Shown here piece by piece: positions 308 through 20,200 of a stretch of DNA of 24,883 nt. The stretch is from a virus, in the IMG/VR virus record IMGVR_UViG_3300042924_000357, positions 1 through 24,883 of that record; one strand, given 5' to 3'. The notes under the pieces were generated by a model that saw nothing but the letters and a program-made list of their open reading frames with translations, ran no database searches and was not told the DNA's origin. Numbering within the stretch: position 1 is the first letter of the stretch; each line of letters opens with the position of its first letter. A program made the position numbers and the translations under genes.

Positions 308-423
308 GTTTAAACATCAACAGCGTAACCCGGCGGAGGGTTTTTATGCGTTTAAACGTTTCCTGCTGGCCAACTGCTGTGTTTTACGCACCTGTTGTAT
401 TTTGCTGCGGTTTTGGTTTAAAC
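308..423. repeat. Cluster of three GTTTAAAC palindromes in non-coding DNA
   Basis: Exact GTTTAAAC copies occur at 308-315, 350-357 and 416-423, the first two preceded by GC (GCGTTTAAAC). These belong to a family of at least 21 exact copies in the window; the other positions are 2339, 2989, 3544, 4343, 4808, 5048, 5667, 7587, 8127, 8711, 9243, 11682, 12824, 14090, 14444, 16293, 16887 and 19651 (first base). This is the densest cluster and it is outside coding sequence. Confidence 0.85.
327..345 (+). terminator. Weak terminator-like hairpin
   Basis: AACCC (327-331) can pair with GGGTT (338-342) around a 6-base G-rich loop, and the T-run 341-345 overlaps the 3' arm. Orientation would stop transcription coming from the left of the window toward the convergent RusA-like gene. 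The stem is only 5 bp, so this is a tentative call. Confidence 0.3.
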
Positions 424-449
424 TTAGGCACTCTCTCCTCAGCAGTTGC

Positions 450-899
450 CTATGTTGAGCTTAAGCCCTTCCGAGTTTTCTTGGTGGGGCTTTTTTTTGG
501 GGCTACCTCAGGGATCTTCTCAATGATGATCTCTGCCCTAGGGTTCTCAGGGTCTAGCCCCCAGTAGCAATGCCTCTCCTTAACCTGACGATCGTTCTCA
601 TATATAAGACCCTGCATCAGGTCTAGGATCAGGCTCTCATCCAAGTCGGGTCGCCTTGAGGCATAGAAAATATGCAGAGTAACCCGCAGATCCCCTGTCA
701 TTAGTGTAGGTAGTTTCCCGCACTGTTGCTTAAATGCATCAGAGTAACTTAATGCTTTAGCAGACTTAATCAGTCTAGACATACCACCGAAGCGTACAAC
801 CCTACGAGAATTTGCTTTCGAAGCTGGCTCACCAAAAATAATTTGTGATAGCACTTGCAATTCTTGTGTAACATCACTATCATTGTGTTTCGGATTCAT
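450..899 (-). CDS. RusA-like Holliday junction resolvase
   Basis: 149 aa. RusA-family enzymes are small dimeric endonucleases that resolve Holliday junctions and branched phage DNA using an acidic metal-binding cluster. Seen here: beta-strand LRVTLHIFYASRRPDLDE with Asp85 and Asp87, then LMQGLIYENDRQV with Asp103, then CYWGLDPENPRAEIIIEKI, the usual closing strand; length is typical. The spacing between the second Asp and the ND motif is about two residues shorter than in common RusA proteins, and the conserved DNxxK Lys is not visible (DESLILD instead). A basic tail (residues 135-145) follows. The start has GAGG seven bases upstream. The gene points away from the nuclease at 918, with only 18 bases between the two start codons, and is the only early gene on this strand. 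The family call is fairly sure; activity is inferred. Confidence 0.85.
   Translation of the reverse strand: MNPKHNDSDVTQELQVLSQIIFGEPASKANSRRVVRFGGMSRLIKSAKALSYSDAFKQQCGKLPTLMTGDLRVTLHIFYASRRPDLDESLILDLMQGLIYENDRQVKERHCYWGLDPENPRAEIIIEKIPEVAPKKSPTKKTRKGLSST
855..883 (+). promoter_or_regulatory. Candidate sigma70-like promoter for the early operon
   Basis: TTGCAA (855-860) and TATCAT (878-883) are separated by 17 bases, matching the sigma70 layout with 4/6 and 5/6 matches, and would start transcription about 25 bases upstream of the nuclease ATG at 918. The site is inside the first codons of the divergent RusA-like gene, which is expected because only 18 bp separate the two coding regions. 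This is read by eye only. Confidence 0.3.
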
Positions 900-917
900 A
901 ACAACCTCGGAGAGAAG

Positions 918-1784
918 ATGAAGATAACGAACAAACAGAATCTGCCCGCACCGATAGTGGCTTTGCTCTCACGCAATTACTACAGTAAGGGTGCTTCACA
1001 GTATAGCGTCACTGAGCTAATGTCGCCACCAAAGATCAGAAGGTTACGCGAACAGTACGATGCTGACATGGAGATTGACGTTACCAAAATGATTGCCTCT
1101 CAGCTAGGCACATTCATGCATGGCAAGCTTGAGGCCAAAGAAGTTGAGGGCTACACCAACGAGGAACGCATCTTTACTGAGGTCGATGGCATTGTGATCA
1201 GCGGAGCGATTGATCTGCAACAACAAGTTGAGGGCGGGGTCGTGATCATCGACTACAAGTTCGTCAAGGCTTGGTCAGTCAAGCAAGGCAAGGATGATTG
1301 GACAACGCAGTTAAACATTTACAAGTGGCTAGTGGAATCAGTTAAGCGTGTGCCAGTCAAAGGCCTACAGATCTGCGCGATTATCAAAGACTACTCAGCC
1401 CACGACACCTCAGAGGGCTACCCCGAAGCTGAGGCCGTGATGATTGACATACCTATGTGGGACTCTGTAACCACAGAGGCCTACGTCCGTAAGCGCTTAG
1501 AGATGCACCGCAATGCCAAGGTGAATCATGAATTTGGTGAGGAGCTACAACCCTGCACCGATGAGGAAAGATGGATGAGTGAAACCGTCTTTGCTGTGAA
1601 GAGAGAGGGACGCAAGTCTGCGATCCGTTTATTTAAAACTATTGAAGAAGCCACAGAGTTGGCAGAAAAGGAAAAAGGCTATGTCGAAACCCGCCAAGGA
1701 GAACCCAAGCGCTGCACAGGAGATTTCTGTGGAGTCAGCAAGTGGTGTAAACAGTATCAAGGAGAAATCAATGTCACCGCATGA
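918..1784 (+). CDS. PD-(D/E)XK nuclease, Cas4/RecB-like
   Basis: 288 aa from the ATG at 918, which is preceded by GAGAGAAG; an upstream in-frame start would run into the RusA gene and is not favoured. Nuclease motifs are clear: GTFMHGKLEA (His68), SGAIDLQ (Asp99), IIDYKF (Asp112, Lys114) and QLNIYKW (Gln131, Tyr135), the usual order H-D-DxK-QxxxY. The C-terminus has Cys266, Cys271 and Cys277 (CTGDFCGVSKWCKQY), with Cys213 before them, resembling the iron-sulfur ligands of Cas4 and AddB-type nucleases. Such proteins in phages supply an exonuclease that makes single strands for an annealing protein, and the next gene encodes one. No CRISPR or cas genes are nearby, so it is not a CRISPR adaptation protein here. 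First gene of the rightward operon; its last 14 bases overlap the next gene. Confidence 0.88.
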   Translation: MKITNKQNLPAPIVALLSRNYYSKGASQYSVTELMSPPKIRRLREQYDADMEIDVTKMIASQLGTFMHGKLEAKEVEGYTNEERIFTEVDGIVISGAIDLQQQVEGGVVIIDYKFVKAWSVKQGKDDWTTQLNIYKWLVESVKRVPVKGLQICAIIKDYSAHDTSEGYPEAEAVMIDIPMWDSVTTEAYVRKRLEMHRNAKVNHEFGEELQPCTDEERWMSETVFAVKREGRKSAIRLFKTIEEATELAEKEKGYVETRQGEPKRCTGDFCGVSKWCKQYQGEINVTA

Positions 1785-2469
1785 TTTACTAAAACTTAAC
1801 GTCAACGAGCACACTGAGAAGAAGAATGGCCTGACGTACCTGTCATGGGCATGGGCGTGGGCTGAGGCTCTTAAGGCCGACTCCACTGCATCGTTCATTG
1901 TCCATACGTTTGCTGACAAACCCTACATGGATGTGAACGGCACAGGCATGGTCTGGGTCACCGTCACAATGTTCGGCCAAGGCCGCACTTGCATGTTGCC
2001 AGTGATGAACCACCGTAACCAACCTATCCAAAGCCCTGACGCTTTCCAAGTCAACACGGCCATCATGCGATGCATGACCAAGGCTTTAGCTTTGCATGGA
2101 TTGGGTCTGTACATCTATAGTGGTGATGATCTTCCGCAGTCAGACGATGCCCCCACCACCATGGGTGAACTGACTAAAAAAGAAGATGGGCCAAAGTACG
2201 AGAAGATCATTACCAAGACTGCGCCTAAGCCTGTTGCCAAGACAATTCAGCCTACCGAATGGGATCCCTCGGATGAGAGCCGTAAGTTCTTTACCGAGTC
2301 AATGATTGAGTGGACGACCCACTGCACCACAGTAGCGGGTTTAAACAGCTACTGGAAGAGCAATGAGCTTCAGCTTGATTCGCTGAAGGTTACGCACCCT
2401 CCTCTGTACGAGGAGATATTAAGCCGCTTCAAGACATTGAAGCAACAACTAACTGAGGAAACAAAATGA
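1771..2469 (+). CDS. DUF1071-family single-strand annealing protein (Rad52/ERF-like)
   Basis: 232 aa. The ATG at 1771 follows AAGGAGAAATCA and is preferred to the in-frame start at 1642, which lies inside the nuclease gene and has no visible ribosome site. The N-terminal part carries the family signature: GLTYLSWAWAWAEALK, PYMDVNGTGMVWVTVTMFG, LPVMNHRNQPI, IMRCMTKALALHGLGLYIY and SGDDLP. DUF1071 proteins are phage recombinases of the Rad52-like annealing group that pair complementary single strands, usually with an exonuclease and an SSB. Both partners flank this gene (nuclease upstream, SSB-like protein downstream). The region after residue about 125 is charged and less conserved, with a short helical C-terminal segment. 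A GTTTAAAC palindrome at 2339-2346 encodes Leu-Asn here. The stop overlaps the next start as ATGA. Confidence 0.85.
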   Translation: MSPHDLLKLNVNEHTEKKNGLTYLSWAWAWAEALKADSTASFIVHTFADKPYMDVNGTGMVWVTVTMFGQGRTCMLPVMNHRNQPIQSPDAFQVNTAIMRCMTKALALHGLGLYIYSGDDLPQSDDAPTTMGELTKKEDGPKYEKIITKTAPKPVAKTIQPTEWDPSDESRKFFTESMIEWTTHCTTVAGLNSYWKSNELQLDSLKVTHPPLYEEILSRFKTLKQQLTEETK

Positions 2470-2783
2470 GTACCTACGCAAAGAAACCGTTTGAGACACG
2501 CCCTGATTCAGGCAATCTGTTTGCCGAGCCAGTCAAGAAGACAACCCTGTCCCCTGACTACTCAGGAACGATCGCCCTTAACTTGAAGGACATGACGGCC
2601 ATCAAGACCGAGAACGGCCTGACCATCATCAAGCTATCCGGTTGGAAGAACGTCAGCCCAACCAGTGGCAAGACTTACTTGGCCTTGAAGGTAAACCGCT
2701 TTGTGCCGGAAGAGCAAGGCGGCATCCGTCAAGAGAACCAAGCCCAACAATTCCCTGTCGATGACAACGAAGTCCCATTTTAA
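2466..2783 (+). CDS. SSB-like single-stranded DNA-binding protein
   Basis: 105 aa. Coupled to the annealing gene by an ATGA overlap. The middle is strand-rich (GTIALNLKDM, LTIIKLSGWKN, KTYLALKVNRF), compatible with a minimal OB-fold, and the tail ends in the acidic, Phe-terminated sequence DDNEVPF, very like the DDDIPF tip by which bacterial SSB recruits partner proteins. Position directly after a nuclease and an annealing protein supports a role in coating single strands during recombination or replication. It is shorter than cellular SSB (about 150-180 aa) and I cannot prove the fold by eye, so the functional call rests on tail, strand pattern and context. Confidence 0.65.
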   Translation: MSTYAKKPFETRPDSGNLFAEPVKKTTLSPDYSGTIALNLKDMTAIKTENGLTIIKLSGWKNVSPTSGKTYLALKVNRFVPEEQGGIRQENQAQQFPVDDNEVPF

Positions 2784-2792
2784 GGAGAGATC

Positions 2793-3164
2793 ATGATTAA
2801 CAAAGCAAAACAAATTCGTGGCTACAAGCAAGCCAACCCTACGCACAAGCCAAGTGATATTGCTAAAGCTTGTGGCGCAACTCTTACTTATGTGTACCAA
2901 GTTCTGCACAAGATGCAGAAAAAGACGGTAAAGCCGGTAGCCGCCCAACCAACTGCCGGTCAAGAAACTGTACGCAAAGAGATTATTCGTTTAAACAACG
3001 AGATTGAGAAATGGAAAAATGCTGCTGAGTTTCAGGAGCGTCGAGCCAATGAATGCTTGAAGCACAACCGAGAACTGAAGCTTCACCACAACGGCCTTGA
3101 GTACGTCATCTCTTACCTTGAGTCACGCCTTGGTATCAAAGAACAAGATGGCACTACAGTTTGA
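2793..3164 (+). CDS. Helix-turn-helix plus coiled-coil protein, likely DNA-binding
   Basis: 123 aa with an AAGGAG ribosome site nine bases before the ATG. Residues about 5-42 (YKQANPTHKPSDIAKACGAT then LTYVYQVLHKM) look like a helix-turn-helix: the phrase 'DIAKACGATLTYVYQVL' matches the recognition pattern of small phage and plasmid HTH proteins. A linker (43-60) rich in Lys, Pro and Gln follows, then a charged helical segment (62-115, EIIRLNNEIEKWKNAAEF onward) that looks like a dimerising coiled coil. It may be a regulator or a replication accessory; no operator is evident. A GTTTAAAC copy at 2989-2996 encodes Leu-Asn. The 3' end overlaps the next gene by 17 bases. Confidence 0.75.
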   Translation: MINKAKQIRGYKQANPTHKPSDIAKACGATLTYVYQVLHKMQKKTVKPVAAQPTAGQETVRKEIIRLNNEIEKWKNAAEFQERRANECLKHNRELKLHHNGLEYVISYLESRLGIKEQDGTTV

Positions 3165-3540: not shown

Positions 3541-3835
3541 GAAGTTTAAACCGTTCATGACGTATGTGTCGGAAGACGAACATCTACGCATGAAGAAGTT
3601 TGCCAAGCTTAAGAAGATCACGATGGCTCAAATGATTAGGGAGGCGATTGACAGTCGCCTGTCCACTGGGGATCCATACACATCAGGGTTTAATGCAGGG
3701 ATTGAGAAGGCCATAGCCGTGGTCAATCAAAACAATGCGGCCAAGATGAGATTCCCGTCAGGAAAATCATTTGCTGAACTGATTATCGAAGAGCTTTCGG
3801 TCGAACGCAGACTAGAGGTTCCAAATGAAACTTAG
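3527..3835 (+). CDS. Ribbon-helix-helix (CopG/Arc-like) DNA-binding protein
   Basis: 102 aa; GAAGG lies six bases before the ATG. Residues about 11-46 (MTYVSEDEHLRMKKFAKL then KKITMAQMIREAIDSRLS) have the strand-helix-helix pattern of CopG/Arc-type repressors: a short strand, a helix with charged residues, then 'xxMAQMIREAIDSRL'. Such proteins dimerise and bind short palindromic operators, so it is a candidate reader of palindromes in this genome, although this is speculation. The C-terminal half is helical with no recognised domain. A GTTTAAAC copy lies at 3544-3551 within its first codons, encoding Phe-Lys. A later ATG at 3557 is an alternative start. Confidence 0.7.
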   Translation: MTHFKKFKPFMTYVSEDEHLRMKKFAKLKKITMAQMIREAIDSRLSTGDPYTSGFNAGIEKAIAVVNQNNAAKMRFPSGKSFAELIIEELSVERRLEVPNET

Positions 3836-4224: not shown

Positions 4225-4427
4225 AGTCAAAAGCTGTTTTAGAGTTTGATTATCCTGAGGATGAAAATGAACTAATGTTTGCCCTGAAAGGTGTAGACAT
4301 GTACGCAACACTGGCCAACATCAAGCTGGCTATCACACGTGAGTTTAAACACAAGGCAGACATGGAGGCCGCGTTGCTGCGAGTGAGAGAACTGACGGAT
4401 GAAATGTTGGCCGAATTAAATAAATAA
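4221..4427 (+). CDS. Conserved small phage protein, hypothetical
   Basis: 68 aa beginning at the ATGA overlap with the membrane-protein stop. The sequence opens with an acidic strand (AVLEFDYPEDENELMFAL) followed by helices (LANIKLAITREFKHK, MEAALLRVRELTDEMLAEL). This 'xxLxFxxPEDxxEL' layout is common in small phage early proteins and no biochemical role is known to me. A GTTTAAAC copy at 4343-4350 encodes Phe-Lys. The neighbours suggest only that it is co-expressed with the early operon. Confidence 0.7.
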   Translation: MKSKAVLEFDYPEDENELMFALKGVDMYATLANIKLAITREFKHKADMEAALLRVRELTDEMLAELNK

Positions 4428-4435
4428 GGACGCAT

Positions 4436-4660: not shown

Positions 4661-4871
4661 AAGAACTGCAAGATTCACTATTGGCATGATGCGTTCAATG
4701 GCCAGTCATGTACCGATTAGCCCGTTTCATTTGGCCGCCGCTGATGAGATGGAACGTTTACTTAAAGAAGTATTGGAATACAGAAAGGCAAACAATGAGC
4801 GAACCAAGTTTAAACATATGGGAAAAAGCGCTGGGCTGGCGCAAGAGGCAGATGATCATGAAGCAACTTGA
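4644..4871 (+). CDS. Hypothetical small phage protein
   Basis: 75 aa. The start at 4644 follows AAGGAG with seven bases of spacing and is clearly better than upstream in-frame starts, which lie in the previous gene. The protein is mostly helical (TARFTIGMMRSMASHVPI, AADEMERLLKEVLEYRKA), with a charged C-terminus. No domain is recognised. It shares 77 bases with the following gene in another frame, so its last 25 residues may be constrained by that gene. A GTTTAAAC copy at 4808-4815 is read as Phe-Lys in this frame. Confidence 0.6.
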   Translation: MAKLSERTARFTIGMMRSMASHVPISPFHLAAADEMERLLKEVLEYRKANNERTKFKHMGKSAGLAQEADDHEAT

Positions 4872-4995: not shown

Positions 4996-5174
4996 ATGGG
5001 TTTGCCAAACAACAATTAGAAATTGGTAGCAAGCAGCCGACGCATAAGTTTAAACACTGCGACCGGTGTGAAGAAGCCAAGCCCCCAGAAGGTGGCATTC
5101 AGATGAGTCCTAACAAATGGCACTGCGCTTCTTGTTGGGCACACAGGGCTACACGGAGGCCAAAGAATGCCTAG
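4992..5174 (+). CDS. Zinc-ribbon microprotein, paralogue of 4436-4660
   Basis: 60 aa, starting with GTG at 4992 that overlaps the previous stop (GTGA). CDRCEEAKPPEGG followed by KWHCASCWAHR gives two CxxC pairs around a K-x-P-x-GG turn, the same arrangement as the gene at 4436-4660 but with a shorter loop. The C-terminus is basic (HRATRRPKNA). Nucleic-acid binding is plausible; the function is not known. A GTTTAAAC copy at 5048-5055 encodes Phe-Lys just before the first Cys pair. The last 8 bases overlap the next gene. Confidence 0.65.
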   Translation: MNGFAKQQLEIGSKQPTHKFKHCDRCEEAKPPEGGIQMSPNKWHCASCWAHRATRRPKNA

Positions 5175-5566: not shown

Positions 5567-5775
5567 ACGAGTGTAAACAGGAGTACTGCGATTTTGTAGG
5601 CAGCCTAGCGTTTGAACAGGATGGTGGCTGGAGCTACGAAGTTTGGCAGGCAGCCCAGCAGGCTGCGTTTAAACGACTGGCTGATAGATTCCGCAGCTAC
5701 GGCAACATCGACTACACCGGCAAAGAGATTGCTCAGTACATTGAATTTATAAGTAAACAAGATGTACCGAAATAA
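5563..5775 (+). CDS. Hypothetical small phage protein
   Basis: 70 aa, coupled by ATGA to the DUF3310-like gene. It is helical and aromatic-rich (GGWSYEVWQAAQQAAFKRLA), with no recognised domain. The GTTTAAAC at 5667-5674 encodes Phe-Lys, and a GTGTAAAC variant at 5571-5578 lies in its third and fourth codons. The stop overlaps the HNH-like gene by 14 bases. It is probably real because the frame is tightly packed between two recognisable genes. Confidence 0.65.
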   Translation: MNECKQEYCDFVGSLAFEQDGGWSYEVWQAAQQAAFKRLADRFRSYGNIDYTGKEIAQYIEFISKQDVPK

Positions 5776-6055: not shown

Positions 6056-9000
6056 GTGTATTGATGTTGGCGGTCAAAGCATTCTGAGCTTGGTTGATTC
6101 TCAGAAGAGCCTCCCGCTTGGCATCAGCATCCATGTTAGAGCTACGGATCATGACTTGCATCTGCCGGAAATTTTTCATGGTCTTCTCTAAGTCAAGGAT
6201 GTAGTCCTTATTGGCAAGCAACTTGATGTTTTCTTGCATGAACTTGCCACGCTCTTCAAAGTTCATTGTGCGTTCAAGCAAGCTGGATGTCCGAACAACC
6301 TCGTCTGTAGCGTTCTTTAAATCGTAGTAGCCGGTGACCGTACCTCTGGCCTCTGGATCTAACGCAAAGCGTTTGATAAACGGCAACTGCTCAAAGCGTT
6401 TAGACGCATTAGGGTTCTCGGCATTCATGTTCATGATCCCGTCCAAGGCGCTGACCATGTACATACCCATCGTACCCGTGTAGCCACCGATCAGGTGATC
6501 GATCTTCATGGGCGACATGCCTAAGTTAGAGCCTGCAAAGGCGGCAAGCGATGAGGTTCCGGGGCCAATTTGGAACTCCGGGGCAACGCCTTCCAGACCT
6601 TGGCCAACAATAGGTCTACGTGTAAACAGGGAGAAGTTAGTCTCTGTCTCCACGAAAGGCTTGATGGCTTGCGGTAAGTAGTCAATGGCCAGTGTCGAAC
6701 GCAGATTCCTAGCCATGGAGTCCATAAAGTCTTTGCTTGTATCGTCCCCAAACAATGAAGCCATGATCCGCTCAGGGATCACCTTGAAGATGACACCAAT
6801 CTCAAACGGGATTGGGATCTTGATGCCCAAGGATGGAATAAGCCAGTTGTTATCTTTGGTTTCCTGTTCTTGTTTTTTATACTCTTCATCATCATGGGTC
6901 AGAGTCCAGTACATGGCCGACAGGGCAAACATGGTCATGCCGCGAACAATGAAGCGCTTTTGAATCATGGCTGCATCTTTGTTGTTCATCTCGCCAAACG
7001 ACGCTCTATAAAGCACATCCAGACCCTGCATGCGGGCGTTTAAGAACGGGATGGCCGCAGTCATGATGCGGATGATTGGAGAACTACCCTTGCGGTTAAA
7101 GTTCATCACCTCAAGCGCACGGTGCAGAGCTTCTGCCTCGTTGCCAGTTTCTTCAAGGGTGCGTTTATACACCTCAATCCTTGTCGCCATGTCAGACGCA
7201 GTCGTACCTTTTTCCAAGGCTTCCCACAGGGATGTGGGCGCAGTCATTGGGTTCAGGATACGTTGGAACAAGGTCTTACCTTCGTACTTCTTATTCAGTT
7301 CCTTTTCAAACGCCTTGGCGCTCATCTCAATGTTCTGAGAGAACTCGTAGCCGCCGCCGATACCAGCGTTTAAAAGCGCCTCAAACTCTGGGGATGTGCC
7401 TGCCATGGCCTTGCCAAAGTTTGAAATGGTATCTACGATGGGAGTCATCTTGACCCCGCTTGTTACGTATGCCGCCATTGAGTCACGAACCATGTTAGCC
7501 AACATGAAGCCGGGATCTTTGGTAACCATGTTCCTTAGGAAGTTGGCCGGGCCAGACAGCAAGCCGATGAACGGCAACTCTGGCATGTTTAAACTCTTAA
7601 CAGCGTCAATGAACAGGTGATCGGCCACCTGATACGTAACAACTTGGCCCTTTTCCAGTACCTGTACAGTGTCCAATCCTGTTGGGGCATTGGGACGTAA
7701 ACGCTCGGCCATCTCAATTTCCAAGGCTCGATCGATGGCACGTTGTGCCGCCACGTTCTTCATGCCCATCTGGATAGAAGACTGCGTGTTACGCACAATG
7801 GTTTCTAGGAAGTCGGCCAAAGGAGCTTTGTCTGTGCCCTCTGAGAGTTTCTTAGGCTTCTTGACACCTGAGATTGACTGGAAGATGTTGGGGCCGATAG
7901 TCTTCTCGCCTTCCATCTGACGATAGAACGGGATGTAATCGGAGAACTCAGTGAACCTAGCCTTGTCACCCTCGGATAGAACGCCAGTGTCTACAAGGTA
8001 CTGCACCAAGCCATTGTTAAACGTTGTCCATTCTTTTTGGATTTGATCAAACTCAGGGTGTTTTGCTTCCAAAGCCTCTGCTCGTTTTACATCATCTTCA
8101 GTAAAGATGTCTGGCTTGCCCTGTGCGTTTAAACGAGAGCCACGCTTTACGCCTGCCCAGAACTGGTAAAGCTGATAGATCAGAGGGTCGTTGTATTTAG
8201 ACAACGGGGCAAAGATAGCCACTGGCCCTTTGATCTTACCGCCATCGTTAAACGCTTTGGTCACGCCATTGACGTAGATGGGGATGCCGCCATTGCGGTC
8301 ATGCACACCCAAGACGGATGCAGTAACCCCTGCGGCTAAGTCAGACTGCAAGGCTCCAGCCTCTGCGCTTTCATCAGCCATCAAGGCCGCGCCACCGCGC
8401 TTCTTAACCACTTCCTTGTCTACGTCGGACAGTCGGTTGTAACGGTTTAAAGATCGAGCACGCAGTTCAGAGAAGGTGTCGCCACCCAATGCTTTAGTAA
8501 TGCGCTGAACGTAGCCCTGCTCTTCGCGGGCGGTTGTTGTTTCGTTTACACGGGCTAAAGTGTCTGGGTCGGTTGAGTCGCGCAGGCTGTAGCGCACATC
8601 AGAGTTGTACTTCGTATACGCATTAGTGTTGCCAATATCAGAAGCTTGTTGCAGACTTGCGCGTTCTGTTGATGGTGCTTCTGGTTTGGCTTTGGCTTCA
8701 GCTTTGGCCAGTTTAAACGGAAGCTGGTTAGGGACGACAACTGTATCGCCATCTGTTTTTGGGTCGTACTGAACAAAGAAACCCTCAGTCTTAACCGTGG
8801 CGTTTTTCTCGCTCATGTTGCCTGCTTTATTACGCAAGCCAACAATCACACCTTTACCACCTGAAGCTTCTTTAACAGCACTCTTCTCATCTAAGAAACG
8901 AGCATCGTAATCATCACCATCCAAGACTTGGAACTCCAACCCAGTTTCTGTATCAACCAAAAACCGTGGCAATCCGGACTTAGATGAGAAAGCCATGGCA

Positions 9001-12000
9001 ACGTTTTGCCCATTCTTTAAACGCTCACGCATTGTTGCCCAGTTGTGGTCATACTTACCAGACTTGTCTTTAAAGAACACCTTCTTATCACCAACAATCT
9101 GACCAAAGCCAGTAGATGAATATGTCAAGTGATGGTTGTCGGCAATAGATTCGCTACCTAGTTTTGTGTAGTCATAAAACATTACATCTGGATTGGACTC
9201 GATCAAACCACGGAACATGGTTGGCTTGAAGTCTGATGTAACGTTTAAACGAATAGCAGGAGCGTAAAGTTCTTTCTCAACGTTTAGACGTTTCTTAGTC
9301 TCTGGATCAACTTTGATTTGCGTGGGTGAGGCACACCACTTAGCCAGAGAATCAATCTCACCCTGCAACAAGGTAACAAAAGCTTCTGGATTAACAATCA
9401 GAGCTTCTGTTTTAAGGTACTGCATCATGCGTGCACCGGCACGGAATGCACTCTTCTCAATGTCACCTACGTCTTCTTGAGCCGCGCCGCCAAACATGAA
9501 GTTACCGCCTGACGTTTCGCCAAGGCACAAGCCTTCGCAGATGGCAGAGCGGGGGCATGTGTTGACCTTGTCTGTAATGTTTTGAGCAGAAGCCAGACCC
9601 AAGCCCTGTGAGGCTACGCTGTATCCGTCATAGGAGATGTTGTAGTCACCGATACGGGTCTTCTCTAGCTTGCCATTTTCAGTCAGCAGACTGCCGACGT
9701 TATGTTCTTTCTTTAACAGCTTACGGGCGGTAGAGACAAGCTTGCGACGTTCTGCCGGAGTGGCGGCTTTGTAATCGTTGACGGCTTTAGTAATGCGTTC
9801 TTCATGATCGCCGTAAGAAAACTCATCTGTGATGGCTTCACGGCGACTTTTTTGAATTGACTGTAGCTTCATCTTGTTGGCAAAGTAATCACCTTCTGCC
9901 AACGGAATAAAGAAATCTCTGCGGCCATTGTCATATTCTTCATCAACCTGAAGCTGATCAGGTGTAACGTAAACCAAGACAGTGCTACCGTCTAAATCTT
10001 GGTCAAAGTTACCACGGTTCTTTAAGATCGCATCACCACCAGACTCATTGGTTAAAAATATCAATGCGCGACCGTCAGACGGGATCATCCGGTTCTGTGC
10101 AATACGTAGAGCATTCTCTTTGGTAGTGTGATAATAAACAGTAACCGTTCCGTCCTTATTGATCGGCACGCCCAGCGTTGGATCAAAAGACAGATGCTTG
10201 TCAGGGTTGTAACTTTGTAAAGAATAACGTGGTGAATCCGTAGGCAGTTCATCTATAGGCTCAGACACATACGGCATGATGCCGTTTGCCTTTTCATAAG
10301 CCTTGGCCTGCTTCATTTCCGTCTGATACTCTTTAACGCTCAGGCGTTCAACCCCGCCTTGAGGTTGACCAGCCTTTAATTCCCCACGCTCAACTTGACC
10401 AAATATATCTTCATAAGTTTGGAACCCTGCGTTGTTAAAAGCATTACGTAGTGCTGTGAAGAAGTCCCTCATGCGCTTAAGTAATGCCGCCAACATGCCT
10501 GTCGGGGGTTTGTTATTAGCAAAATCAGCAAAGGCATCAGCAATAGCTTCTTCCGTTACCTTATCCATGTCACCGTTATACAAGTCAACATAGGCATCGT
10601 AGCGAGAGGTCTTCCTACCTTTGTAATCAGCAGTTGTATTCTTTAGGTACTTGGTGATCCACTGGTCTTTAGCCATGCGGGTCAGCGCAGTCCACTGCTG
10701 TGGCGTAAAGAAGTTGAGATCCTTCAGCGCGTGCAATGATTCATGGCGCAGAACCCGGACAGGATCTTTCTCGTTTAAAGCAATCTTAATTAGGCTCTCG
10801 TTGTAGGAGCCTTCTTGATCCATCTTCTCCAAGATGTTCAGTTTGACAGCGCCAAGGCCAAGCTTTTCTAAAACAGGCTTTAACTTAGCTTCAAGATCGG
10901 CCAAACGCTTTCTTGTCTCAGGCGAAATCTTGGCTTCCTCTGCTTTAGCTTTCGCAGCTTTAGCTTCTGTTTCAATGCCCTCCAGAACCTCAGACACAGG
11001 CTTCTGCTCGGCAAAGCGTTTAGCTTCAGCCGCTGTAGGAGCCTTAGGAGTTCTGCGTTCTAGTTCAGCCTGAGCCTTCTTACCCACCGCACGACGGCCT
11101 TGCTGTTGAGCCAACTCTTGCAATTGCTTGTCATCCATGTCGGCCAAGATGCTTTCTTCAGCCGCTTGACGGGATGGGTATGTGGCACGTGCCTGACCCT
11201 GTTCAAACACCGTGAAGCCCTTACGGCCAATTGCTTTGTTGGCGGTTGGCTTAATCTCTAAAGGCGTGATCTTGGGGTCAAGCTTTTGAATCTGTTCTGT
11301 GAGCGAGGCAATTTTTGCCTGCGTTTCTGCAACTAATTTAGCTTGCCGACCAGCCGCCTTTTGGAAGTTGGTTGACTGGCCTTCGCCTCTAGCTTCACTG
11401 CTATCTAAGCGTTTCTGACCAGCTTCAATAGCATTGTTTAACTGCTTAATTTGATTTTCAAAACGCAGTGCCATACCGGCACGAGTGCGCTCAGAGCTTG
11501 CCTTCTTGGCGTTTGCTTCGTCTATGGTGTCGGATTTAGACAACAGAGTGTCACCGGCATACAACTCATAACCTGCTGGAGCCTCACCCTCTTTAAACGC
11601 ACCTTCACGGATGTCAAATCCTTCGGGCAGCGTGGCGGAGGTGGTGGGGGCGGCGATAGCATCTGTTGTAATTTGCCTAACGTTTAAACCACGCTTGGCC
11701 GCCGCAGCGCGGGCAGCAGTCCTAGATGTGTAGGTAGACGGCAAAACATTGCCGCTCTTAGGATCATAGATCTCGTAGCGGGGTGTCTTGATCAGGTCAA
11801 CGTCACCATTCTTAATGGCGGCATCAAGGATAGCTCCCGCATGGGAGTCTTCTGTAAGGTTCGTGTATTCCTTGATAGTCTTGATGACCTCCTTAGGATC
11901 TACAGGAACACCCAGTTCTGCCAATAGGAAGTCAACTCCCTTGATGGCCTTGTCGTATTGCTTCTCATCGTAGCGGCTGGCGTTTGTGCCTTCCGGTAGG

Positions 12001-13622
12001 ATGGTTGAAGTTGTTGCTGCTGGCAGGCTGGCTAATGCTTTAAACGCAGCATGTAACTGCGGCTGCGACATCTGCTCCAGTGCGTTTACACCAGTTGTCC
12101 GGGTTAGGAAGTCCTTAAAGCCTTGAGTTTTGGTGTCAATTTTCTTTAGACCAGCTTGCTCTAGGATTTGGGTTGCGGTGTATTTCTCACCGGCATAACC
12201 AGACTTGGCGGTAATAAGCTGATCCAAGAGGGCTTGCTCTGCCTTGGGGTTCTGTCCCGGCATAGCATCCACAAAGTCCTCAAGCGAGTACTCCTTGAGC
12301 TTGGGAAGTCCAGCTTGCTTGCGGTAATCATCGATCTGCTTGTAGATGTCGAAGGGAACTTCGCTCTTACGGATGTTGCCTAAAGGATTCTTGAGCGGAT
12401 CGGTCTGTACTTCTTCAACGGGGATTTCCTCAGCCGGTGCAGGCAAAGCAATAGCCTGCTGTTGCTCCATTTGCTTTTGGATTTCGTCGGTCTGTTTCTG
12501 AAGAACAGCACGCTCGGCTTCTGCCTTTTGTGCCTCAGCTTGTACTTTTGCATCGGCTTCAGCCTGTTTCCTAGCTTGATCATCAGCTAATGATTGTTTG
12601 TATTGACGTTGCAAATTAGAGACTTGCAAAGGAGAAACGGCAAGGCCAAGGACTGAGCCAACTAAGGCATCATGAGCCACCGTACCGGCCAAGCCGTCAG
12701 TTAAATCTTTTGCTACACCAGCTTGATTCAAAGCGATGTTAGTACCAACTTGTCCTACCGCAGCTTGTGCCGCTTCAGGCAAAGCCTCACCTAGTGTAGA
12801 CGAGGCTACTGCACCAAGCTTCTGTTTAAACTGAGGTGGAGTTAATGATGCTGCGCCTTGGCCTGCGCCAACTTTTCTGGCCGCGTTTGCCAAAATATTT
12901 TCAATACCGAATATGCCTTCCAATGCGCCAGCACCGCCTGCAACGGCTTGTCGAGGAGCGTTTTGCAATGAATAAGCGGCAACCTCTTGGGCTTTCTGTT
13001 CTGCGACTTCTGGAGATTCACCTTGGCTTAACAAGGCCTGTTTAACGGCTTCATAATCTTGGCCCTTCTGACCGCCTACACCCATCAAACCACCAATACC
13101 GCCCGCTCCTCTTGCACCGGCCAGTGCTCTAGCACCTAGGCTTGCGCCTGCGGCCACCTGACCTCCGGGCAAAAATGCACCCGCAACAATTGGGGCGCTA
13201 GACGCTAATGCTTGTAATCCGGTTTGCAAGGGGGCTTCTGTAAAGCTACCCACTTTAGATTTGATGTCACCGCCTGAGCGCTCGATTAACTCTTGGCGAC
13301 GAGCCATTTCTTCTTTACGGGCTGGACTCATGCCTTCATAGGCAGATTGCTGTGCTTCCCCCAAATACTGAGAAGCCGCATTATCAACGCCAAAGATGTT
13401 AGTGAGAGACTGAAGGCCTCCCGCAAAACCTTGCTTAACCGAACGACCCACATCACCTAAGGTGCTAGGAGCACTCTTGGCTTCTTCTAGTTCTTTGGTT
13501 GTCTGTCCTGCAAATGGGTAATTCTGCAATACCAAACCATATATTTGCTGATCAGTAGCGCCTTCTGGGGCGTTTACACGATACTTATTTCCATCTGGTG
13601 CGGTGTATTGATAAATTGCCAT
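6036..13622 (-). CDS. Giant polyvalent virion/ejection protein (metallopeptidase, ART-like, GP88-like, LPD38-like)
   Basis: 2528 aa; last gene of the leftward block, starting 3 bases after the previous stop. Order by residue: 1-40, an N-terminal phage motif (MAIYQYTAPDGNKYRVNAPE); 110-330, Gly/Ala-rich hydrophobic helices likely to meet membrane; 340-395 and 725-930, charged coiled coils; 890-1080, a zincin-like metallopeptidase with HESLH at 960-964 and a downstream EEAIADAFADF at about 1024-1034; 1150-1245, an ADP-ribosyltransferase-like stretch (VYYHTT, IFLTNES, RRDFFIPL); 1300-1630, a Cys-cluster domain (CPRSAICEGLCLG, IRLNVTSDF, MFYDYTK) resembling phage GP88; about 1680-2528, a long helical part resembling LPD38, with one hydrophobic segment near 2215-2235. 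Known polyvalent proteins combine such domains and are injected with phage DNA. Domain identities other than the HExxH site are family resemblance judged by eye. Confidence 0.85.
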   Translation of the reverse strand: MAIYQYTAPDGNKYRVNAPEGATDQQIYGLVLQNYPFAGQTTKELEEAKSAPSTLGDVGRSVKQGFAGGLQSLTNIFGVDNAASQYLGEAQQSAYEGMSPARKEEMARRQELIERSGGDIKSKVGSFTEAPLQTGLQALASSAPIVAGAFLPGGQVAAGASLGARALAGARGAGGIGGLMGVGGQKGQDYEAVKQALLSQGESPEVAEQKAQEVAAYSLQNAPRQAVAGGAGALEGIFGIENILANAARKVGAGQGAASLTPPQFKQKLGAVASSTLGEALPEAAQAAVGQVGTNIALNQAGVAKDLTDGLAGTVAHDALVGSVLGLAVSPLQVSNLQRQYKQSLADDQARKQAEADAKVQAEAQKAEAERAVLQKQTDEIQKQMEQQQAIALPAPAEEIPVEEVQTDPLKNPLGNIRKSEVPFDIYKQIDDYRKQAGLPKLKEYSLEDFVDAMPGQNPKAEQALLDQLITAKSGYAGEKYTATQILEQAGLKKIDTKTQGFKDFLTRTTGVNALEQMSQPQLHAAFKALASLPAATTSTILPEGTNASRYDEKQYDKAIKGVDFLLAELGVPVDPKEVIKTIKEYTNLTEDSHAGAILDAAIKNGDVDLIKTPRYEIYDPKSGNVLPSTYTSRTAARAAAAKRGLNVRQITTDAIAAPTTSATLPEGFDIREGAFKEGEAPAGYELYAGDTLLSKSDTIDEANAKKASSERTRAGMALRFENQIKQLNNAIEAGQKRLDSSEARGEGQSTNFQKAAGRQAKLVAETQAKIASLTEQIQKLDPKITPLEIKPTANKAIGRKGFTVFEQGQARATYPSRQAAEESILADMDDKQLQELAQQQGRRAVGKKAQAELERRTPKAPTAAEAKRFAEQKPVSEVLEGIETEAKAAKAKAEEAKISPETRKRLADLEAKLKPVLEKLGLGAVKLNILEKMDQEGSYNESLIKIALNEKDPVRVLRHESLHALKDLNFFTPQQWTALTRMAKDQWITKYLKNTTADYKGRKTSRYDAYVDLYNGDMDKVTEEAIADAFADFANNKPPTGMLAALLKRMRDFFTALRNAFNNAGFQTYEDIFGQVERGELKAGQPQGGVERLSVKEYQTEMKQAKAYEKANGIMPYVSEPIDELPTDSPRYSLQSYNPDKHLSFDPTLGVPINKDGTVTVYYHTTKENALRIAQNRMIPSDGRALIFLTNESGGDAILKNRGNFDQDLDGSTVLVYVTPDQLQVDEEYDNGRRDFFIPLAEGDYFANKMKLQSIQKSRREAITDEFSYGDHEERITKAVNDYKAATPAERRKLVSTARKLLKKEHNVGSLLTENGKLEKTRIGDYNISYDGYSVASQGLGLASAQNITDKVNTCPRSAICEGLCLGETSGGNFMFGGAAQEDVGDIEKSAFRAGARMMQYLKTEALIVNPEAFVTLLQGEIDSLAKWCASPTQIKVDPETKKRLNVEKELYAPAIRLNVTSDFKPTMFRGLIESNPDVMFYDYTKLGSESIADNHHLTYSSTGFGQIVGDKKVFFKDKSGKYDHNWATMRERLKNGQNVAMAFSSKSGLPRFLVDTETGLEFQVLDGDDYDARFLDEKSAVKEASGGKGVIVGLRNKAGNMSEKNATVKTEGFFVQYDPKTDGDTVVVPNQLPFKLAKAEAKAKPEAPSTERASLQQASDIGNTNAYTKYNSDVRYSLRDSTDPDTLARVNETTTAREEQGYVQRITKALGGDTFSELRARSLNRYNRLSDVDKEVVKKRGGAALMADESAEAGALQSDLAAGVTASVLGVHDRNGGIPIYVNGVTKAFNDGGKIKGPVAIFAPLSKYNDPLIYQLYQFWAGVKRGSRLNAQGKPDIFTEDDVKRAEALEAKHPEFDQIQKEWTTFNNGLVQYLVDTGVLSEGDKARFTEFSDYIPFYRQMEGEKTIGPNIFQSISGVKKPKKLSEGTDKAPLADFLETIVRNTQSSIQMGMKNVAAQRAIDRALEIEMAERLRPNAPTGLDTVQVLEKGQVVTYQVADHLFIDAVKSLNMPELPFIGLLSGPANFLRNMVTKDPGFMLANMVRDSMAAYVTSGVKMTPIVDTISNFGKAMAGTSPEFEALLNAGIGGGYEFSQNIEMSAKAFEKELNKKYEGKTLFQRILNPMTAPTSLWEALEKGTTASDMATRIEVYKRTLEETGNEAEALHRALEVMNFNRKGSSPIIRIMTAAIPFLNARMQGLDVLYRASFGEMNNKDAAMIQKRFIVRGMTMFALSAMYWTLTHDDEEYKKQEQETKDNNWLIPSLGIKIPIPFEIGVIFKVIPERIMASLFGDDTSKDFMDSMARNLRSTLAIDYLPQAIKPFVETETNFSLFTRRPIVGQGLEGVAPEFQIGPGTSSLAAFAGSNLGMSPMKIDHLIGGYTGTMGMYMVSALDGIMNMNAENPNASKRFEQLPFIKRFALDPEARGTVTGYYDLKNATDEVVRTSSLLERTMNFEERGKFMQENIKLLANKDYILDLEKTMKNFRQMQVMIRSSNMDADAKREALLRINQAQNALTANINTLRANVM

Positions 13623-13625
13623 GTT

Positions 13626-15374
13626 TTATCCACTAATACGTTCAACTGTACCGGGAATTTTGGTAACGGGTGCAGCCTTGCCTTCAAGTACAGCGCGATC
13701 TGCCAAAAATTGTTGGATAACCAGATCACGTTGTTTTTGATATTCCTTGTATTTAGACGAACTTGGATCTGTGTTTTGCATCATTTGATCAAGGAACTGC
13801 GTTCTTTCATTCAGCGCCTTGGATGTCGCAGCTTTATCGCGTTGCGCGGCACTCTGATACTGGCCGCTTGCCAGATAAGATGCGGCACGCTCCATAGCCT
13901 CATTAGGTGACATCTGAGGATTTTTACGTTGAATGTCTTCAGCCACTTGAACAAGCTGGGGCAAACGGTTTTGACCGGCGGCTTGGATACTGTTGCCACG
14001 GGCTTGTTCTTTAAGCTTGGCAATGTCCATTTGATTGGAGAATTCTTTCTGCTGCAAGTCCATGCCAATTTTCTCGGCATCCTGCTTATGTTTAAACGCA
14101 GCTTCAAAGTCACCACGCGCTTCAGCACGACGGGCGGCTTCAAGTTCAGCACGCATCTTAGCCATGCCCATCTCTTGTTCACGACGCATCTTGGCTTGTG
14201 CATCGGCACGCTCAAATGCAGCCGCCTCAGAAGCTCCGGCAGACTTACCAAAGCCGCCAAACAAAGCACCAATACCTTTTTGACCACGGGTAGCTTCGCC
14301 TGCGGCAATTAAAGCTTGGAAAAAGTCAGAACGTGTACGAGCTTTTTCTTGTTCTGATACACGGCCACGATCTGTTTCATCCTGTTGAGCCATTTTATTA
14401 AGTAATGCCTCAAACCCAGCCCCCGCAGCGCCGGGATTAGCTTGTTTAAACGCAGCAAGTTCTTTAGAGTAAGCATCTTTGTCAGGTGCTGTAAACGTAG
14501 GTGCTCCGGGCATTTTCATACTGGCAGGAATGCCGCCACCGGCTGGTGCGGGCATTGGAGGCATGGGTGGTGGAGCCACTGAAGCGATACCCATGGGTGG
14601 GCCTGCGTTCTGACGAGCTAGACGAGCAGTCTCTGCCGCGCTCTGATCATCAGGGCTAAATGTAGGCTGGACACGGGCAGCAGCTTGCTGCTGGGCATTA
14701 CGCACTGGGATGCCCATGGTCTTACCCATAGCACCGGCAGGGCCAGTATCGCTGCTAAACGCAGCACGTCTTGCATCGTTTAAAGCGGCATCAGCCGCTG
14801 CGGCGGCTTGTTGAGCAGCAGCAAAACCCTGAGGATCTTGTTGCTGTTGGCGCAAACTGTATTGACGTAAGTTGTTTCTTGCCTCTCTTGCGGCCTGTTC
14901 AGCTTGGTCTACAACCAAATCACCCTCGGCAAAAGCGACAACGCCACCGCCGCCAGCAAATTTAAACATGTCATTGGTTGGCAGGGAAGTCAATCCACCA
15001 CCAGCCATTTGAGGCATCTGTTGAGCCATCTCTGGCATTTCTTCCTCTGGCTGTGGAGGCTGAGGTGTACCTTCTGGCACTGGCTGAGGTTGGGCCATCA
15101 AGCCCTGTTGAAGCTGTTGATTAGACTGCGTTTGTTTAGCTGCACCGGCCTGCATCAAGTCAGCCGCCTGTCCGGTCAGTTCTTTTTCAAGTTTGTCTTT
15201 GACTGTGCCGTCAGGAGGTGTGCCCGTCTTAGCCGATTGTTCCATGCGTTTGCGGCGGTTTAATTCTGCCAAAGCTAAATATGGAGGAACATCAGGGTTA
15301 GTGCCATTGGCATAACCCATGACTACCTGCATGGTTTGGTCTTTAAGATCGTCTTGTATTTGGAGTAGATTCAT
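13626..15374 (-). CDS. Virion-associated protein, probable ejection/internal protein
   Basis: 582 aa. The start follows TAAGGGTTTAAG. The N-terminus (LLQIQDDLKDQTMQVVMGYA then NGTNPDVPPYLALAELNRRK) is a pattern seen at the start of many phage structural proteins. Residues about 90-150 are Gln/Pro-rich followed by a Gly-rich amphipathic loop (MAGGGLTSLP, FAGGGGVVAFAEG). About 345-470 are charged Ala-rich helices likely to form coiled coil (AKMRREQEMGMAKMRAELEA). The C-terminal 80 residues are helical and soluble. No enzymatic motif is visible. Position between the 302-aa protein and the polyvalent protein suggests an internal virion component or chaperone of it. GTTTAAAC copies at 14090 and 14444 encode Phe-Lys. 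Confidence 0.75.
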   Translation of the reverse strand: MNLLQIQDDLKDQTMQVVMGYANGTNPDVPPYLALAELNRRKRMEQSAKTGTPPDGTVKDKLEKELTGQAADLMQAGAAKQTQSNQQLQQGLMAQPQPVPEGTPQPPQPEEEMPEMAQQMPQMAGGGLTSLPTNDMFKFAGGGGVVAFAEGDLVVDQAEQAAREARNNLRQYSLRQQQQDPQGFAAAQQAAAAADAALNDARRAAFSSDTGPAGAMGKTMGIPVRNAQQQAAARVQPTFSPDDQSAAETARLARQNAGPPMGIASVAPPPMPPMPAPAGGGIPASMKMPGAPTFTAPDKDAYSKELAAFKQANPGAAGAGFEALLNKMAQQDETDRGRVSEQEKARTRSDFFQALIAAGEATRGQKGIGALFGGFGKSAGASEAAAFERADAQAKMRREQEMGMAKMRAELEAARRAEARGDFEAAFKHKQDAEKIGMDLQQKEFSNQMDIAKLKEQARGNSIQAAGQNRLPQLVQVAEDIQRKNPQMSPNEAMERAASYLASGQYQSAAQRDKAATSKALNERTQFLDQMMQNTDPSSSKYKEYQKQRDLVIQQFLADRAVLEGKAAPVTKIPGTVERISG

Positions 15375-15383
15375 CTTAAACCC

Positions 15384-16292: not shown

Positions 16293-16301
16293 GTTTAAAC
16301 C

Positions 16302-17261
16302 TTATGCTGGTAAATGTTTGTCAGCCTTGGAATTGGCTGCAACGTTTTTCAAAGTTTTGCCACGAGCTTTCTGGATGCGATCCATCATGGCATATAGTTT
16401 ACGTGCTCCTGCGTCTGTAGATCCATTACCGATCTCAGAAACAATACGGGCTGGAATGACAAACTCACCATCGGCCAGACGGGCTGGTTGGTTCTTCCCA
16501 ATCATCGCAGGGATGTCATCAGACACACCATCGCCCGGCCCTTTAAGGAGGCGACCGCCATCGGAGTAACTGCCCAAAGAACCTAGTCCACCCTGAGCCA
16601 TACCTCCTGCGGCATATTTATCTACAAATAAATTATCATTTGGAGAGGCTGGAGCGGCTGGCGCTACTGGAGCGGCTGGCGCTGCCGGGGCAGCAGCCTG
16701 AGGCGTGTAAACCATAGGGGAGAAGTAGGTCACACCACCTGAACCGGGGCGACGTGCAATGCCTGCGTTTGGCCCCATCGCAGCCTGATAACGAGACTGA
16801 ATATCCGCTACCGGAGCCTTGGTGATTTCAGAAATACGCTGAGGAGAAACGCCGTATTCGTTCATTGAACGAGCAATCATGGCATCGTTTAAACCGGGTC
16901 GCTTTAGATAATCCATGACTTCGGTGTCGGATGGTTTGTAACCCATACCAACCGTGCTTACAGGAGCGGCGTACTGCGTGCGTGAAGCTGTGTACTTTGG
17001 TATGCTTCCTTGATAGCCCTTGAAGCCACCACCCCCACCACCACCGCCAATAGAATTAAGTAAAGCGCCAATGCCGCCAAGACTGGCTAACTGTGCAGTT
17101 GTTCCAGACTTACCAGACAGGATGCCTTTAATGGAATCTAAGATGCCCGGATCGTAATTGATGCTAGACAGGATGTCGGCATTGGACGGAGATGAGCCTA
17201 AATCATTGTAGGCAAACGCATCGTTCCTAGGATCCGCAAAAAAATCGTATTCTTCACCCAT
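16302..17261 (-). CDS. Virion protein with C-terminal DGVSDxIPA motif region
   Basis: 319 aa; start one base after the previous stop, with AGAGG upstream. Features: a Gly run (GGGGGGGF, about residues 73-80); a helical module at about 106-162 (EVMDYLKRPGLNDAMIARSM, NEYGVSPQRISEI, VADIQSRYQAAMG) that resembles the modules of the next-upstream 1978-aa protein; an Ala/Pro-rich linker (AAPAAPAAPVAPAAPASP); and a C-terminal part with GGRLLKGPGDGVSDDIPAMI, ARLADGEFVIPARIVSEIG and GARKLYAMMDRIQ. The last pattern is widespread in phage tail-associated proteins. It is probably a minor tail or ejection component; the exact role is unknown. Confidence 0.8.
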   Translation of the reverse strand: MGEEYDFFADPRNDAFAYNDLGSSPSNADILSSINYDPGILDSIKGILSGKSGTTAQLASLGGIGALLNSIGGGGGGGGFKGYQGSIPKYTASRTQYAAPVSTVGMGYKPSDTEVMDYLKRPGLNDAMIARSMNEYGVSPQRISEITKAPVADIQSRYQAAMGPNAGIARRPGSGGVTYFSPMVYTPQAAAPAAPAAPVAPAAPASPNDNLFVDKYAAGGMAQGGLGSLGSYSDGGRLLKGPGDGVSDDIPAMIGKNQPARLADGEFVIPARIVSEIGNGSTDAGARKLYAMMDRIQKARGKTLKNVAANSKADKHLPA

Positions 17262-17262
17262 A

Positions 17263-20200
17263 TTAGCCTCTTGCTTGAATAATTTGCATTAACTCTTCTT
17301 GCGTCATATTGTTGTCGCCTGAAGACATGATTTGTTGAAGTAACGCAGATATGTCATTTTCGCCGCCTTTTGCTTCTTGTGCAACAGGCATTGCTTGCGG
17401 TGCTTGTTCTGCGCCTGCCTTGGTAACACTTAACTCATGGTACGGAGACATCATCAAATCGCCCGTCGGGGCAACTTGCTGTTTCTGACCACCAAAGTCC
17501 TTGCCGTAATAGAACACACTTGCCAGCGGAGCAACCATAGACTCGCCTCCACCGCCGCTTTGTGGCATCTGCGGTTGCGTTGGTGTGCCCGTCTTCTTGG
17601 GCGGTGTCTTGGTTGGCGGTGTAGTTGTTGTAGGAACTGGCGTAACCGTCGGCGTAACTACTGGCGGTGTCGTTAGAGGTGTTGATGTCAACACATCTGG
17701 TGGCGTGTAAACGCCGGGAATCGTTACATCCCCAACTGTAATTGCGTCAGGCGTAGAAACATTAACGTCTGTTTTAACGGTCGGAGTTGTATCCACCGTT
17801 GGGTTAGTTGTAACCGTGGGATTAGTTGTGACTGTCGGGTTGGTCGTCACCGTAGGATTGGTGGTGACGGTTGGGTTGGTATTTACAGTCGGATTTGTAG
17901 TAACCGCAGCATTGGTTGTTACGGTTGGGTTAGTAGTGACCGCAGGATTGGTCGTAACCGCTGCATTGGTAGTTGCATCAGTTGCAGTATCCGTGGCTGT
18001 ATTCGTGGCTGCGTTGGTAGCGGCATTGGTATCAACCGCTGTATTTGTAACCGTATTGGCTGCTGTGTTGGTTGCAGCGTTTGTGTTTGCAGCCGTGGTT
18101 GTGGCAGTAGCTGTATCAGTTGCAGTGTCTGTGGCTGTATTAGTTGTAACCTTAGCTGCTGTCAAAGCGTTTAAAGCAGCCTGAGCCGCAGCTTTGGCAT
18201 CAGCAGCAGCCTTTGCATCAGCCGCAGTTTTTGCAGCAGCAGCAGCGTCAGCGGCAACTTGCGCGTCAATCTCAGCTTGGGCTATAGCAGCGGCCTGTGC
18301 ATCTGAAGCAGCTTTTGCAGCAGCAACGGTCTGAGCGGCAGCCGCATCAGCAGCCGCTTGAGCATCGGCAGCAGTCTGAGCGTCAATTACAGCCTGAGCA
18401 TCGGCAGCAGCCTTTGCAGCGGCAGCGGCAGCAGCCGCATCGGCGGCGGCTTTAGCATCAGCGGCAGATTTTGCGGCAGCAGCGGCGGCGGCAGCGGCAG
18501 CGGCCTCAGCAGCGGCTTTGGTAGCGGCATCCGCACTAGCAGCAGCGGCAGCAGCGGCCTCGGCAGCAGCCGTGGCGGCGGCGGCATCAGCCGCAGCTTG
18601 ATCGGCAGCAAGTTTAGCGGCAGCGTCAGCCTTTGCTTGAACTTCAGCCGCAAGAGCGGCATCGGCGGCAATCTTGGCATCAAGAGCAGCTTTTGCTTCA
18701 GCCTTAGCTTTAGCTTCAGCAGCGGCTGCGACTTGTGCTTCAATTGCAGCTTTCGTATCAGCGGCCAGTTGTGCAGCGGCAGCATCTGCTTTAGCTTTAG
18801 CATCAATGAGGGCTTGTGCATCGGCAGCCGCTTTGACTTCAGCCGCTATTTCAGCGTCAGTCTTTCCTTTAACTTTAACGTCAGCAGCCTTGGCCACGCT
18901 GTCAGCAGTAACTTTAGAACTCATAGCTGCAACCACATCGCCAATATCTACACCAGCCGCATCCATGGCAGTCACAATGTCAGCTTGTGAAGCATCAGGA
19001 TTGGCTGCAAGCCAGCCGTTAATTGCGTCATACACTTGCTGTTGGCTTGTATTATTAGCCGCTGCATACTGCATTGCTGGGCTAAGATCTATGTTTGATG
19101 TGTCTATCAAGCCAGCATTAGTTAAAGTACTTGTTACATCCTCTGGAGCAACAAAAATATTAGTTTTGGAATCAACCAAGGAACTAATGTTATTACTACC
19201 GTCAAAAGACTTTAGGCCTGCATCGTTTAGCTCTTGTGTAAACGTTTGCTGTACATCCGAAACCGAGTTGGACAGATTAGAGGCGGCATCAATACTTCCG
19301 GTTGTTTTGCCAGCGACAAAGCCACCAACGACACCTTGAGTCAAAGCCTTGTTTAAATCAACCTTGCCGGTCAGGGCGTAATCGGTAATTGCAGAAGTTA
19401 AAAACTCTTCGCCAAACTCAGATCCACCTTCTTTGGCAATGCCAGTTGCACTCTTAGTTGCGGCTTTTTCAACAGACTTAGTGATCTTGTTGATGACCGC
19501 AGTATCCACAATACCGGCTGTAGCCACAGTAACTGCACTGGCAATATAAAACGCAGACATGCCTTCAGCATCTGCTTGAGCGGGTGTTTTGCCTGCTTTA
19601 ATGGCATCACGATACTTGTCGTTGTACGCTGCGCCGCCAGACTCAATGGCGTTTAAACCCATATCTAAGCCAACTGCGCCTAGTTTTCCAAGCAAGCTAA
19701 CCGATTTGAGTGCCAAGCCCATGGGCAAAGCTTCTTGCAATACTTCAATCGCTGCCATGTTAATAGACAGAGGATTTTCGTAAATGGCTTTTGCGCCAGC
19801 AATAATTTTTGCGCCTAGGCCTTCTGCATTGTTAACAGCATTGATAACGTTGGCGTTGGCTTGATTTACCGATTCCAACTGCAAGGATTCGCCAGTACGG
19901 GTCATGGATTGACCGGCATTGGTTAAGGTGTTGTTTGCGCCTGTTAAGCCTACCGCTGCCGCACTACCGCCCACAAAATCAAGCGTTTGACCAGCCGCTT
20001 GCTGTATGTTGGACAAACCTTGGATCACAACATTGGCAGCCGTGCCTTTTCCAAAGACGCTTTCTATTGCAGCCTTTGCTGTAGCGGCTTTTTGCTCGGC
20101 ATTGGCAAGATCTAATGCTTCATTTTGGGCCAGTAGTTTTCTTGTTTCAGAAGCGTATTCATTTGGCCCACTGCCTATGATCCTTGCCAGCGTGTCGTTC

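Follow-up and report, generated by a model that had tools for sequence, protein, structure and literature searches.

A selected, iterated 8 bp palindrome in a tailed-phage fragment and its association with a SprT-like zinc-ribbon protein

The DNA analysed here, referred to as the window, is the whole 24,883 bp stretch at positions 1 to 24,883 of IMG/VR virus record IMGVR_UViG_3300042924_000357, a tailed-phage fragment encoding RusA, exonuclease, Sak-like and LPD38/GP88 proteins. It contains many copies of an 8 bp palindrome, GTTTAAAC, which a preliminary description made from the sequence alone had reported as highly over-represented, with at least 21 copies. A word count finds exactly 21, each where it had been read (starts spanning 308 to 19651), against an expectation of 0.45-1.6 per strand from Markov models of orders 1-5 with the motif masked; maximal-order Markov z-scores carry no information here, as the counts of the sub-words are themselves raised by the motif. 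The reversed control word is present once, and the next commonest 8 bp palindromes in the window have three copies each. The sites are unevenly distributed, with ten in the first 6 kb, eleven between 6 and 20 kb, and none between 20 and 24.9 kb. The variants GTGTAAAC and GTTTACAC account for 13 further copies in the window, likewise above expectation.

Seventeen of the GTTTAAAC copies are coding and these use just the two stop-free reading frames, eight and nine times, the near-equal usage previously described. As they correspond to ordinary Phe-Lys and Leu-Asn codons, chance or codon usage might be thought to generate them. However, synonymous codon shuffling, which preserves both the proteins and the codon usage, gives a mean of 5.4 and a maximum of 10 copies over 2000 shuffles (counts that include four copies beyond the reach of the shuffle), compared to the 21 observed. 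Furthermore, 76 of 91 sites that can be aligned with nine motif-rich relatives are identical, where other 8-mers in the same alignments predict 20.8; the variants GTGTAAAC and GTTTACAC are conserved in 31 of 55 aligned copies in motif-rich relatives. The shuffle and conservation tests refute an origin by chance or codon usage, to which we attach practically no probability. Because the Markov-corrected count is far from expectation and codon usage does not explain the copies, the constraint acts on DNA, as had been proposed; the repetition is real and under selection.

Relatives of the window were retrieved by a structural gene, and thus blind to the motif. Among the 17 of at least 38 kb, GTTTAAAC is present in 39-54 copies in four and in 0-7 copies in thirteen, and a profile search shows that a strong match to phrog_6361 is found in exactly the four motif-rich relatives, a perfect separation (in G013 the match is weak and partial). 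One relative, G002, has no GTTTAAAC in 38 kb despite 93% identity in the structural-gene protein used for retrieval. The motif thus follows one phage gene rather than structural kinship. The preliminary description had also raised a host-derived iterated palindrome or a role in restriction or methylation, either of which would suit a palindrome that is scattered, mostly intragenic and on both strands, and HIP1 of cyanobacteria (GCGATCGC) is similarly an over-represented, mostly genic 8 bp palindrome. But unlike HIP1, GTTTAAAC does not follow a host lineage; among relatives whose structural genes are nearly identical, the copy number depends on the one phage gene and ranges from 0 to 54, the motif occurs in phages of different bacterial phyla, and a scan of bacterial genomes for three close copies gave mostly AT-rich genomes, none of the 119 matches listed being a bacterial genome enriched in the motif. 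Gene-content comparison turned up no methyltransferase family. A host or restriction imprint is thus extremely improbable, and these earlier suggestions are not borne out.

Additional, unrelated motif-rich phages were obtained by scanning viral contigs for three close GTTTAAAC copies, and gene content was compared between 34 motif-rich and 7 motif-poor genomes or contigs. Together with the profile, this identifies the SprT-like family in every long motif-rich genome except G036; in G031 the gene lies outside the part compared and was detected by profile, and in G041 just a short ribbon fragment of the protein remains. It is the sole family common to all of the unrelated motif-rich genome types, including GC-poor ones that lack a primase-helicase. 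A primase-helicase was rejected as the causal gene, as G039 and G040, which are GC-poor and rich in the motif, do not encode it, and four relatives encoding both it and the SprT-like protein have no GTTTAAAC and hold a variant motif instead (GTGTAAAC in 13 and 12 copies, or ATTTAAAC in 19 and 18). G036 was excluded, since its GTTTAAAC copies derive from a 29 bp tandem repeat that is not SprT-linked and is located at both contig ends (15-51 and 38239-38507).

The complete motif-rich relatives match the phrog_6361 profile, a SprT-like protein with no assigned function; Pfam SprT-like matches score below the gathering cut-off. The protein has a minigluzincin (small metallopeptidase) domain, often in degenerate form, and C-terminal to it a zinc ribbon with the conserved signature Q-x-T-R...C..C...R...C.C. 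The HExxH motif is intact in some homologues (HELCH, HEMIH, HELVH) and lost in others. The predicted structure has a mean predicted local distance difference test (pLDDT) score of 96, and Foldseek matches, all weak, are best to minigluzincins over the N-terminal part and, over the last 46 residues, to MCM zinc ribbons. SprT/Spartan and the minigluzincins abylysin and selecase share the N-terminal fold, with HExxH in some members, but in the present family it is the C-terminal ribbon that is conserved, loss of the active site is frequent, and sequence-specific DNA sites are proposed. Five motif-rich, actinophage-like contigs (G028, G029, G030, G038 and G042) have WhiB-like and amidoligase-like genes together with a SprT-like protein lacking HExxH.

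The pairing of motif and SprT-like gene is seen again in numerous unrelated phages and in a small number of plasmids, among them named phages of Arthrobacter, Microbacterium, Streptomyces and Dinoroseobacter and a Magnetospira plasmid. The Arthrobacter phage Powerpuff (L568) has 27 copies of GTGTAAAC (0.13 expected) and the Dinoroseobacter phage R26L has 11 copies of GTTTAAAC (0.01 expected); GTGTAAAC is similarly abundant in Cen1621 (22; 0.03 expected), Warda (17; 0.10), Soondubu (14; 0.19), Caron (12; 0.02) and Marky (11; 0.02), and GTTTAAAC in the Magnetospira plasmid (16; 0.35). In many named replicons one copy lies 20-110 bp ahead of the SprT-like start codon, as in Powerpuff, where a GTGTAAAC is 36 bp upstream of that of gp49. 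Loci with very few sites have them in or just ahead of the SprT-like gene; Persinger has two copies, one at -32, and the single copy in ECO1230-10 is at -21. Several intergenic copies in Warda and Powerpuff directly follow a TTGCGYAA...TAGACT promoter-like pair, and in Cen1621 intergenic copies lie between -35/-10-like boxes. Site density is 0.3-0.5 per kb upstream beyond 2.5 kb, 2.0-2.3 per kb from the SprT-like gene to 7.5 kb downstream, and 0.7-1.0 per kb thereafter.

When SprT-like loci were chosen by protein alone, all 55 had at least three GTTTAAAC nearby (two of the 55 were already known). In GC-rich loci with just three copies, all three are inside the SprT-like gene, and conservation of these in-gene sites may partly reflect a conserved Phe-Lys codon pair. 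Over 211 SprT-like loci the dominant allele is GTTTAAAC in 176, GTGTAAAC in 16 and ATTTAAAC in 8, with none in 11, although many of these loci stem from the motif-selected scan or overlap, and the metagenomic loci are often related, such that the counts are not independent. The asymmetric alleles occur in both orientations relative to genes, and the signal is therefore in DNA rather than RNA; an RNA-level motif is ruled out. Where the C-terminal zinc ribbon of the homologue is degraded (Eden, CN1, Epa5, L542 and L551), there are 0-1 motif copies, and four of four distinct Q-P-T-R ribbons are associated with more ATTTAAAC than GTTTAAAC, one of them with a single copy. These associations suggest that the site alleles change with the protein, constituting a DNA code that could be read.

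From the computed enrichment, conservation, association with a single gene, and three motif alleles, we infer both sequence-specific binding and transcriptional silencing. The SprT-like protein is very probably the binder of the motif, and the codon shuffle, the conservation and the SprT-like-linked alternative motifs lend strong support to the protein-binding site that the preliminary description had listed among its options. We think it probable, overall, that the palindrome is the site of a phage-encoded SprT-like protein that regulates its own genome, with the chances evenly balanced that its main role is transcriptional silencing. The zinc-ribbon protein would bind dozens of sites over its own genome; those adjoining or inside the SprT-like gene would provide autoregulation, those on promoters would act as operators for repression, and the dense intragenic sites across the gene's own transcription unit could be roadblocks to elongation, in a stoperator-like manner.

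An alternative is that the sites form a segregation, origin or DNA-architecture array that the SprT-like protein coats or bridges, in a centromere-, iteron- or nucleoid-like fashion, with effects on transcription being secondary. Non-coding GTTTAAAC clusters are regular, with a spacing of about 37-48 bp that is mostly near 43 bp (about four helical turns), and the clusters of three to six sites at about 41-46 bp in G035, G041 and G028 would fit such an array. The even spread of sites over the Magnetospira plasmid, the adjacency of the SprT-like gene and parA in two plasmids of sphingomonads, and the location of the SprT-like gene within the replication region of freshwater phages are also consistent with this. 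On the other hand, actinophage sites are on promoters and ahead of the SprT-like gene, the freshwater phages are without ParA, and a ParA ATPase partner, as in a ParABS-type centromere, was found in none of 15 motif-rich phages, with parA adjacent in plasmids only. We consider an array of this kind unlikely as the primary role. The packaging or segregation signal listed in the preliminary description may still apply.

It is also conceivable that the SprT-like protease acts on a partner protein and that it is the partner that binds the motif, resembling ImmA-ImmR and CapP-CapH, in which a metallopeptidase is likewise tied to phage or defence gene control. The peptidase fold, a weak Foldseek match to CapP, and the helix-turn-helix (HTH)-type gene adjoining the SprT-like gene in Warda and Powerpuff would fit this arrangement. 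However, the peptidase in those systems targets a separate HTH repressor and no shared partner was found here, many motif-bearing homologues lack HExxH but have the ribbon, and the Powerpuff neighbours gp47 and gp48 are missing from the searched freshwater, Marky, R26L, Pan1 and plasmid loci, a distribution that rules these two out as binders. Such an arrangement is very unlikely.

Several observations weigh against regulation by the SprT-like protein. The best of the Foldseek matches has an E value of just 0.036; L528 and L540 retain the ribbon yet have no motif enrichment; and the link between Q-P-T-R ribbons and ATTTAAAC is not significant on the tree, the independent events being too few. 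In the freshwater phages the sites are mostly intragenic and some are in the clusters spaced by about 43 bp, away from promoters, a pattern that would also fit a structural or replication role. These phages have no integrase, resolvase or ParA genes, and a role in lysogeny is therefore not general. Finally, the window is a fragment without a SprT-like gene (the phrog_6361 search gives no match), and the gene's presence in this phage is predicted from relatives. In the closest complete relative, G009, base 1 of the window aligns at 25,776 and the SprT-like gene is at 16,782-17,369; the gene would therefore sit about 9 kb past the left end of the window.

The nearest known system to the proposed SprT-like regulator is that of the cluster A mycobacteriophages such as L5 and TipsytheTRex, in which one repressor has more than 20 short operator/stoperator sites, on promoters or between genes (PMC9283540). 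Both have a phage-encoded protein and many short sites, some on promoters, with alleles that vary between phages. They differ in that the cluster A repressor is a two-domain HTH protein with 13 bp asymmetric sites oriented with transcription (PMC9283540), whereas the protein associated here has a minigluzincin domain and zinc ribbon, and the sites are 8 bp palindromes or near-palindromes, often intragenic and in both orientations; unlike cluster A, the SprT-like system is also in integrase-less phages and plasmids. In the papers searched, GTTTAAAC is not described from phages and SprT is not connected to such a site; for GTGTAAAC and GTTTACAC the proposed link was not found among the 25 best-ranked of 970 papers.

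Lysogens of Powerpuff, a cluster AZ phage, are immune, and cluster AZ and EH phages are said to encode an unidentified repressor, the SprT-like gene being treated merely as shared DNA processing (PMC8758107). The SprT-like protein is a candidate for this immunity repressor, with the GTGTAAAC sites as its candidate targets in Powerpuff, and the published repressor question becomes directly testable. More tentatively, and at somewhat less than an even prospect, peptidase-derived zinc-ribbon proteins and their own iterated 8 bp alleles could be a widespread new class of genome-wide DNA regulators in phages of several bacterial phyla and in plasmids, supplying the missing AZ/EH immunity repressor and silencing early genes in phages without integrase. 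This gives a lead to function for a phage family whose annotation has so far been limited to SprT-like protease or unknown, and site density could serve as a marker for these phages and plasmids in metagenomic data. The individual sites are listed in Table 1.

Table 1. Positions of GTTTAAAC and its variants in the window, and of non-coding GTTTAAAC clusters in other genomes. Strand is not assigned; fractions are relatives in which the site is identical.
Feature	Coordinates	Remarks
GTTTAAAC	308..315	Left non-coding stretch; 42 bp from site 350; identical in G009, G012, G024
GTTTAAAC	350..357	4/4 (aligned)
GTTTAAAC	416..423	2/4 (aligned)
GTTTAAAC	2339..2346	Within Sak-like gene; 8/8
GTTTAAAC	2989..2996	4/6; remaining 2 have variant GTTTACAC
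GTTTAAAC	3544..3551	Exact copy
GTTTAAAC	4343..4350	4/4
GTTTAAAC	4808..4815	4/4
GTTTAAAC	5048..5055	7/7
GTTTAAAC	5667..5674	8/8
GTTTAAAC	7587..7594	Within 2528-aa gene; 8/8
GTTTAAAC	8127..8134	2/4
GTTTAAAC	8711..8718	Exact copy
GTTTAAAC	9243..9250	Exact copy
GTTTAAAC	11682..11689	4/4
GTTTAAAC	12824..12831	3/4
GTTTAAAC	14090..14097	4/4
GTTTAAAC	14444..14451	1/4
GTTTAAAC	16293..16300	Adjoins start of minus-strand gene 15384-16292; 5/5 motif-rich relatives; absent from motif-poor G004, G016, L016
GTTTAAAC	16887..16894	2/2
GTTTAAAC	19651..19658	Reads GTTTAAAG in 2 relatives
Variant GTGTAAAC (example)	1745..1752	One of 13 variant copies
Variants GTGTAAAC/GTTTACAC	Starts 4210, 5571, 6620, 8544, 12084, 13572, 16705, 17705, 19236, 21719, 23769, 24641	Further copies
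Non-coding GTTTAAAC clusters	G041 11931-12163; G035 2389-2473 and 3734-3821; G028 22010-22095	

Among the other replicons, the Nanhaivirus phages R26L and Pan1 (L556 and L561) both have the motif and the SprT-like gene, and R26L also encodes the 7-deazaguanine synthesis genes QueC, QueD, QueE and QueF. In the sphingomonad plasmids L559 (7326-8703) and L567 (11986-13347) the SprT-like gene is immediately upstream of parA, and each has three GTTTAAAC.

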